A stretch of 64,000 bases of DNA from Anaeromyxobacter dehalogenans 2CP-C (lineage in GTDB: Bacteria > Myxococcota > Myxococcia > Myxococcales > Anaeromyxobacteraceae). Each line of letters opens with the position of its first letter. Position 1 is the first letter of the stretch. The stretch covers positions 124,001 to 188,000 of the forward strand of contig NC_007760.1 in assembly GCF_000013385.1 (NCBI RefSeq), read 5' to 3'. Of the stretch, positions 61,858 through 63,604 are shown in pieces. Under the pieces are notes generated by a model. It was not told where the DNA came from. It saw only the letters and a list, made by a program, of their open reading frames with translations, and ran no database searches. Both the position numbers and the translations under genes were made by a program.

Positions 61858-61887
61858 TTGACGTGCGAGATCGCGCGCTGCTAACCT
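61858..61887 (+). promoter_or_regulatory. Promoter of the basic-peptide gene
   Basis: TTGACG (61858-61863), 18-bp spacer, TAACCT (61882-61887). It gives a leader of about 58 nt which ends in GAGGAGGG before the ATG at 61952. Confidence 0.65.
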
Positions 61888-61951
61888 CCGCACAACTTGT
61901 CCATTCCTGAGTGTCCATCGACATCGAATGGACGTTCCGAGGAGGGAACAG

Positions 61952-62038
61952 ATGGCTGCGAAGAAGAAGACCGCGAAGAAGACCGCTGCGAAGAAGCCGG
62001 CCGCGAAGAAGAAGGTCGCGAAGAAGGGCAAGAAGTAA
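61952..62038 (+). CDS. 28-residue Lys/Ala-rich histone H1-like basic peptide
   Basis: Translation begins MAAKKKTAKKTAAKKPAAKK and ends VAKKGKK: 15 Lys, 8 Ala and no acidic or aromatic residue. Runs of AAKK and TAKK resemble the C-terminal tails of histone H1 and of bacterial H1-like proteins (chlamydial Hc1, AlgP), but here the tail is the whole protein. Evidence it is a gene: strong GAGGAGGG ribosome site 6 nt upstream, a good promoter, ATG and TAA in frame, Lys coded only by AAG, and a hairpin terminator 30 nt after the stop. Likely binds DNA or RNA by charge. I know no named family for such a short free tail. Confidence 0.75.
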   Translation: MAAKKKTAKKTAAKKPAAKKKVAKKGKK

Positions 62039-62065
62039 CGCAGGGCTTCCACCCAGCGTAGCGCC

Positions 62066-62094
62066 GCGGCCGCCTCCGGGCGGCCGCTGCTTTT
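62066..62094 (+). terminator. Terminator of the basic-peptide gene
   Basis: GCGGCCGCC / GGCGGCCGC, 9-bp perfect stem with loop TCCG, followed by TGCTTTTCC, one of the best U-tracts in the window. It lies 28 nt after the TAA, before the NFACT gene at 62114. Confidence 0.8.
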
Positions 62095-62113: not shown

Positions 62114-63604
62114 ATGTCGCTCACCGCTCGCGAGCTCGCCCAGGTGGTCGCCGAGCTCGCCCCGCTCGCCGGGGCGTACGTCGAGGCGGTGCGCGCGCAC
62201 GCGGAGCGGGCGCTCACCCTGTCGCTCCGCGGCCGCGCCGGCGACGCGCTGCTGCTGCTCTCCGCCGAGCCCGACGTCACCCGCCTCCACGCGGCCCGCC
62301 GCCGCCCCCCGCAGCCCGACGCCCCCTACGCCGTCCAGGCGGTGCTCCGCCGCGAGCTGGAGGGCGCGCGCCTCGCCGGCCTGGAGACGCTCCCGGGCGA
62401 CCGGGTGGTGGCGCTCTCCTTCGAGCGCGCCCCGGCGCGGGGCGGGCCGGTACGCCTGGTGGCGGAGCTCACCGGCCGGCACGGCAACCTGTTCCTGGTG
62501 GACGCGGCCGGGATCATCCGCGCCGCCGCCGCCCGCAACCTCTCGCAGCGCCGCGACCTCGCCGTGGGCCGGCCCTACCAGCCGCCCTCGCTCCCGCCCG
62601 CCGGCCCCGGCTCCGACGCCGGCCAGGGCGCGCCCCGGTTCGCGCCGGTGCCCGGCACGCCGTTCCCGCTCTCGGCCGCGATCGAGGACGCCTACCTCGC
62701 GCGCGAGGAGGAGCGGCGCCTGGCCGAGGGGCGGCGGCGGCTGCGCGAGCCGGTGCGCGCGGCGCTGGCCCGGGCCGGGCGCGCGCTCGCGAAGCTCGCC
62801 GACGAGGCGGCGCGCGTGCCGGCCGCCGAGGCGGACCGCCGCGCCGCCGACCTGCTCAAGACCCACCTGCGCGCCGTCCGGCGCGGCGCGACCGAGGTCG
62901 CGGTCACCGAGTGGACCGAGGAGGGCCCGCGCGAGGTGCGCGTGGCGGTGGACCCGGCGCTCACGCCCCAGGCGAACCTGGAGCGGTACTACCGGCGCTA
63001 CCGCCGCATCGTGGAGAGCGCCGCCCGGGTGGAGGCCCGCGCCGCCGAGGTCCGCGCCCGCGAGGCCGCGCTGCGCGCGCTCCTCGGCCGGATCGACGCC
63101 GCCGGCGCCGCCGACCTGCCGCGCCTCGAGCGCGAGGCCCGCCGCCTGGCCGCCGGCCCGCGCCCGGCCGCGCCGCCGCGCCGCAAGCGCGACGAGCCCG
63201 CGCTGCCCTACCGCACCTTCCGCTCGCTCTCCGGCGCGACGATCCTGGTCGGGCGCGGGGCGGCCGAGAACGACGCGCTCACGCTGCGCGTCGCCCGCGG
63301 CAACGACCTGTGGCTGCACGCGCGCGGGCTGCCCGGCGCCCACGTGGTGGTCCGGCTCGACAAGGCGAAGGCGCCGGACGCGGAGACGCTCGTGGACGCC
63401 GCCCACCTCGCGGTGCACTTCTCCGACGCCCGCGGCGCGCCGCAGGCCGACGTCGCCTACACCCGCGCCCGCTTCGTGAAGAAGCCGAAGGGCTCGGCGC
63501 CGGGCGCGGTCACCTACAGCCAGGAGAAGGTCCTGCTCCTGCGCACCGAGCCCGGGCGCGTCGAGCGCCTGCTCGCCGAGGAGGAGGGCGGGCAGGGCGG
63601 CTAG
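62114..63604 (+). CDS. NFACT-family protein (RqcH/FpbA-like)
   Basis: 496 aa, shorter than the usual 550-590. N-terminal NFACT-N-like part (LTARELAQVVAELAPLAGAYVEAVRA, YAVQAVLRRELEGARLAGLETLPGDRVVALSFE), an Ala/Arg-rich helical middle (about 195-360) that would form the coiled coil, and the C-terminal NFACT-R domain (YRTFRSLSGATILVGRGAAENDALTLRVARGNDLWLHARGLPGAHVVVRL, ARFVKKPKGSAPGAVTYSQEKVLLL). RqcH recruits tRNA-Ala to stalled 50S subunits and adds Ala tails. Whether this compact form keeps that function depends on the NFACT-N Asp-Arg pair, which I cannot identify clearly. Confidence 0.88.
   Translation: MSLTARELAQVVAELAPLAGAYVEAVRAHAERALTLSLRGRAGDALLLLSAEPDVTRLHAARRRPPQPDAPYAVQAVLRRELEGARLAGLETLPGDRVVALSFERAPARGGPVRLVAELTGRHGNLFLVDAAGIIRAAAARNLSQRRDLAVGRPYQPPSLPPAGPGSDAGQGAPRFAPVPGTPFPLSAAIEDAYLAREEERRLAEGRRRLREPVRAALARAGRALAKLADEAARVPAAEADRRAADLLKTHLRAVRRGATEVAVTEWTEEGPREVRVAVDPALTPQANLERYYRRYRRIVESAARVEARAAEVRAREAALRALLGRIDAAGAADLPRLEREARRLAAGPRPAAPPRRKRDEPALPYRTFRSLSGATILVGRGAAENDALTLRVARGNDLWLHARGLPGAHVVVRLDKAKAPDAETLVDAAHLAVHFSDARGAPQADVAYTRARFVKKPKGSAPGAVTYSQEKVLLLRTEPGRVERLLAEEEGGQGG

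Follow-up and report, generated by a model that had tools for sequence, protein, structure and literature searches.

A conserved lysine-rich small gene located directly before rqcH in Anaeromyxobacter and other Myxococcota

We analysed a window of 64,000 nt from Anaeromyxobacter dehalogenans 2CP-C (NC_007760.1, 124,001-188,000) and give all positions relative to the first nucleotide of this window. At 61858-62094, downstream of genes for a phosphoglucomutase/phosphomannomutase and a ROK kinase, the window carries a micro-gene that is followed by a gene of the NFACT/RqcH type. The features are:

61858-61887, forward strand: sigma-70-type promoter TTGACG-18-TAACCT, read directly, with similar boxes in relatives
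61858-61863, forward strand: -35 box TTGACG, followed by an 18-nt spacer
61882-61887, forward strand: -10 box TAACCT
61899-61933, forward strand: 5'-proximal leader hairpin with the stem GTCCATTC/GAATGGAC, from fold and conservation
61934-61949, forward strand: small hairpin GTTCC/GGAAC with the Shine-Dalgarno sequence in its loop, from the fold
61940-61946, forward strand: Shine-Dalgarno sequence AGGAGGG, read directly, 5 nt upstream of the ATG
61952-62038, forward strand: micro-ORF of 87 nt (ATG at 61952, TAA at 62036-62038) encoding the peptide MAAKKKTAKKTAAKKPAAKKKVAKKGKK
62063-62094, forward strand: intrinsic terminator with a 12-bp GC stem and TCCG loop (62063-62090) and TTTT at 62091-62094
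62114-63604, forward strand: rqcH (NFACT/RqcH gene), from Pfam and PDB matches, starting 19 nt past the T-run

The transcript, whose start position we infer, encodes a presumably disordered, low-complexity peptide of 28 residues. A preliminary description of the locus had called it Lys/Ala-only with 15 Lys and 8 Ala; the Ala count is correct, but there are 14 Lys, and the remaining six residues (Met, Thr, Pro, Val and Gly) mean that the label is not strictly true. The micro-ORF is the only short ORF of the 64 kb window with more than 25% Lys, and it is the only match in its own genome to a pattern of Shine-Dalgarno sequence, ATG and Lys-rich codons. Reversed as a control, the pattern had no match here and a single one across all 195 Myxococcota genomes. 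Neither Pfam nor NCBIfam contains a model matching the peptide.

The product of the downstream gene contains the Pfam domains NFACT_N and NFACT-R. Its best solved relative is RqcH of B. subtilis (PDB 7as8, E = 2.7e-47), and the Asp-Arg pair of NFACT-N is aligned in this match, which identifies the product as RqcH. In most families rqcH starts similarly near the micro-gene terminator, and this spacing would leave no room in most genomes for a promoter of its own after the terminator. We infer from the lack of space that transcription of rqcH either reads through the terminator or starts at an internal promoter.

All eight Anaeromyxobacter genomes in which the locus is seen have promoter, leader, ORF and terminator preserved before NFACT. 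Across the genus, identity to the window is 77-100% for the promoter, 92-100% for the leader and 97-100% for the terminator. For the more distant members, the promoter (77-83%), the leader (92-97%) and the ORF (77-91%) compare with about 50% for the upstream intergenic DNA and 37-53% for the gap between terminator and NFACT; within the genus the leader is better conserved than the ORF. Since all parts are kept in the eight genomes while the flanking upstream DNA diverges, the conservation of the micro-gene is, judged from these alignments, far beyond chance. The preliminary description had taken the locus for an intact unit of transcription that yields a small basic peptide, not for a remnant. 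Related strains without the frame, the promoter or the terminator would have contradicted this. We looked for such losses and found all three retained, and the promoter, Shine-Dalgarno sequence, ORF, hairpin and T-run that it listed are there in the window and found again in relatives. Other genera of the same family (f1) carry micro-ORFs of 21-42 aa at the same place. The terminator loops of this family are mostly TCCG or TTCG tetraloops, the window copy being the one at 62063-62090.

We then followed the gene through the phylum. In a search blind to NFACT, 195 Myxococcota genomes were scanned for a Shine-Dalgarno sequence followed by ATG and Lys codons, and most of the short Lys-rich products in the order, among the loci retrieved, adjoin the start of NFACT. 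In the converse search, the NFACT/RqcH genes of the phylum were located first and the DNA upstream of them was scanned; a Shine-Dalgarno sequence was required for accepting homologues in later scans. In families f1, f2, f4, f6, f7, f8, f13 and f19 a micro-ORF with a Shine-Dalgarno sequence precedes the NFACT match by about 70-170 nt, and in f10 by 577 nt; the minus-strand control upstream of NFACT was empty. Lys-rich micro-ORFs of 20-99 aa are found directly before rqcH in about 90 Myxococcota genomes of at least eight families, including Myxococcus xanthus (79 aa), Corallococcus, Pyxidicoccus and Citreicoccus. By the count of our architecture table, 97 genomes carry the micro-gene and about 91 have it adjoining NFACT; the remainder lie at contig ends, are separated from NFACT or lack NFACT. 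The synteny before NFACT, which the preliminary description proposed as a check, therefore extends far past the genus.

The expression signals recur as well. Similar promoter boxes with 17-18 nt spacing are present in most f1, f2, f4, f6 and f7 relatives, and most other families have a terminator at the same place with an unrelated stem sequence. The AT-rich f19 genome has its own Shine-Dalgarno and terminator sequences, yet the same gene order. Outside f1, no ROK or phosphoglucomutase genes were found upstream of the micro-gene, so that what is kept is the pair of micro-gene and NFACT, not the whole region. In a scan that covered 80 loci, none of those from Nitrospirota, Planctomycetota, Nitrospinota, Spirochaetia and Acidobacteriota-type genomes has a Lys-rich ORF before NFACT. 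On this comparative evidence the micro-gene is a real, conserved small gene that has been overlooked, and its link to rqcH is the new finding; our search of the open literature found no description of either. Gene finders commonly miss ORFs this short (87 nt is probably under the usual gene-caller limits, in agreement with the preliminary description), and low-complexity filters mask them in homology searches, which is how a gene linked to rqcH in much of a phylum can stay unseen.

The pattern of substitution suggests that the micro-ORF is a coding sequence. The pN/pS ratio is about 0.28-0.44 in five sets of micro-ORFs, and by this measure their codons are under purifying selection. The frame is kept despite length changes, while length and sequence drift freely among relatives. 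Of 1862 Lys codons 1850 are AAG, which agrees with the genes that flank the window copy; these belong to a GC-rich genome and contain no AAA. A chance or decaying ORF is hardly credible here: the sequence is of low complexity, and repeat expansion can yield such sequence, but conservation across families together with expression signals contradicts this explanation.

We also considered a structured small RNA in which the ORF would be incidental. The leader and terminator are indeed conserved above the ORF, and fourfold sites in Anaeromyxobacter change less in the micro-ORF (14/90) than in NFACT (667/1705, five comparisons summed), which makes an added constraint at the level of RNA or expression possible in this genus. 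The leader of the window folds with z = -2.7, and values of -2.5 or lower are found in most members of genera g1 and g6 and in several of f6, whereas others are near zero. The leader stem is the same in g1 and g6 with different loop lengths; in other families some loci have different short stems around the Shine-Dalgarno sequence and others have none. A 5'-terminal hairpin stabilises mRNA, and this would fit an abundant product. On the other hand, frame and Shine-Dalgarno sequence are kept, pN/pS is below 1, and in the Myxococcus-type genus g33 the fourfold sites of the micro-ORF diverge as freely as those of NFACT (0.36 vs 0.37), so that we regard the small-RNA explanation as very improbable. 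The one Rfam match, to sX6 of Xanthomonas (RF02225), stays below threshold (24.5 bits, cut-off 40), and its score is driven by Lys codons and the terminator. sX6 resembles the micro-gene in being a short gene with a strong terminator, and it was itself first called an sRNA and then found to encode a small protein (PMC5559785); we therefore rejected an Rfam sRNA identity. Binding of CsrA to the Shine-Dalgarno hairpin was likewise rejected, because PF02599 is absent from the genome, whereas the same search was positive in the E. coli, B. subtilis and T. maritima controls.

For a putative peptide encoded just before rqcH, the next question is whether it acts in cis or in trans. As a cis-acting leader peptide, slowing of the ribosome on the polybasic chain would alter read-through of the terminator and so set the level of rqcH, which would amount to a self-sensing switch for ribosome quality control. 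The order of promoter, short ORF, terminator and gene, as in known leader-peptide attenuators, is found here and kept across families, rqcH lacks promoter room in most genomes, and polylysine mildly stalls B. subtilis ribosomes lacking YkpA/YbiT (PMC11381351). In family f2 (L111, L112, L164, L168), unlike the other families, two overlapping hairpins without a U-run directly follow the stop codon and look mutually exclusive; this is the only place where a switch looks possible. Apart from this possible exception, the search for an antiterminator was negative: across 23 loci the 5' arm of the terminator pairs upstream no better than shuffled sequence does. Between the stop codon and this arm there are 24-46 nt, too many for a terminating ribosome to mask the arm directly. 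Also against a cis role, the ORF can be anything between 20 and 99 aa long, and in Myxococcus it ends in a conserved tail that is less basic.

Two genomes (G098 and G100) have an opposite-strand gene, about 2.8 kb long, between the micro-gene and rqcH, and in both the micro-gene has remained whole, as has its terminator; the insertion may be recent, and both cases may come from one event. In G056 the micro-gene is retained and no NFACT was found. In having no antiterminator, a hairpin far from the stop codon and retention when the downstream gene is gone, the micro-gene differs from attenuators. A classical leader-peptide attenuator is thus not favoured, given the lack of an antiterminator and survival of the insertion before rqcH, and we judge both the cis-acting control and the self-sensing switch unlikely. 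The insertions and the G056 case favour a peptide acting in trans, and the lasting linkage favours a process shared with rqcH. In G100 the frame of the intervening gene spans 969 aa and includes a DUF7948 domain (L213; the two insertion loci are L212 and L213).

With its low complexity, a trans-acting peptide of this kind could fill many roles on nucleic acids. The preliminary description likened it to a free histone-H1 tail and proposed an abundant peptide that would compact nucleic acid; for a nucleoid peptide compacting DNA, the link to rqcH would be a matter of operon inertia or promoter supply. The likeness in composition holds, as the HC2 protein of Chlamydia and the H1-like proteins of Burkholderia are also Lys/Ala-rich, basic and of low complexity, but these proteins are larger, and the 28-aa peptide matches none of the H1-like HC2 models (PF07382, NF038052, NF038053). 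Longer relatives give matches to the HC2 and Burkholderia H1-like models at 15-32 bits, which are driven by composition and fall below the cut-offs of 40-135. The occurrence of H1-like tails on other proteins of the same genome and of Lys-rich small genes away from NFACT in family f11 also speaks for this explanation. Against it, no H1-like model reaches its cut-off, 20-28 residues is short for DNA condensation, and the tie to rqcH outlasts that to the other neighbours examined. DNA compaction by the peptide is possible, and as an account of the locus we consider it somewhat unlikely. The Lys/Ala tails of the genome (L002, L004 and L006, in the vicinity of C1:2693600, 3233250 and 1199770) belong to a separate protein beside a tRNA-synthetase gene (apparently valS), a CarD-type regulator and an RlmE-like methyltransferase. 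The f11 genes (L046, L049, L050) share a common upstream element, CACGAAGACAGG.

The explanation that we prefer, and to which we give an even chance of being right, is a small-protein gene encoding a trans-acting polycation in a two-gene unit with rqcH, which is expressed by read-through. With its relatives among the myxobacteria, the peptide would make up a family of polycations, presumably disordered, 20-99 aa long and rich in Lys, Ala, Thr and Arg. It would be made in quantity and bind nucleic acid electrostatically in trans. In view of the lasting tie to rqcH, the likeliest target would be the ribosome or rRNA, with a role within or close to ribosome-associated quality control. The terminator would divide the transcripts, giving abundant peptide and low-level rqcH by read-through. 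This proposal is supported by the agreement of the NFACT-blind and NFACT-first searches, by pN/pS below 1, by the G098, G100 and G056 cases and by the missing antiterminator. The preliminary description called the micro-gene autonomous, which is not supported in that form: the unit has its own promoter and terminator, but much of the phylum keeps it in front of rqcH, whose expression seems to rely on read-through from it.

The retention of the micro-gene just before rqcH in myxobacteria suggests that it and RqcH work together in an undescribed way. More tentatively, the polylysine peptide may be a dedicated, Myxococcota-specific part or regulator of ribosome quality control, either binding split 50S subunits or RqcH in trans or, as an ORF on which ribosomes stall readily, acting as a sensor that adjusts rqcH. 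RqcH is known to act with a small protein, RqcP, and ArfA and BrfA are small proteins that bind the mRNA channel of the ribosome through basic tails (PMC8012679). The micro-gene product resembles RqcP as a small protein linked to RqcH, and differs from RqcP/Hsp15, whose S4 domain has no counterpart in a low-complexity peptide of 28 residues without a Pfam or otherwise recognisable domain. It differs from ArfA and BrfA in being polybasic throughout, and we saw no KH motif or shared signature. If the peptide works with RqcH, it would be an undescribed small component or control of myxobacterial ribosome rescue, and a polybasic sequence, which is hard for bacterial ribosomes, would sit at the control point of the pathway for stalled ribosomes.

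Among the genomes examined, 34 have rqcH without an adjoining micro-gene, and the micro-gene is therefore not essential to RqcH function. One genome with rqcH and no micro-gene, G102 (L100), has a different basic ORF of 37 aa, beginning MPAKKGNRSKKSLKRR.
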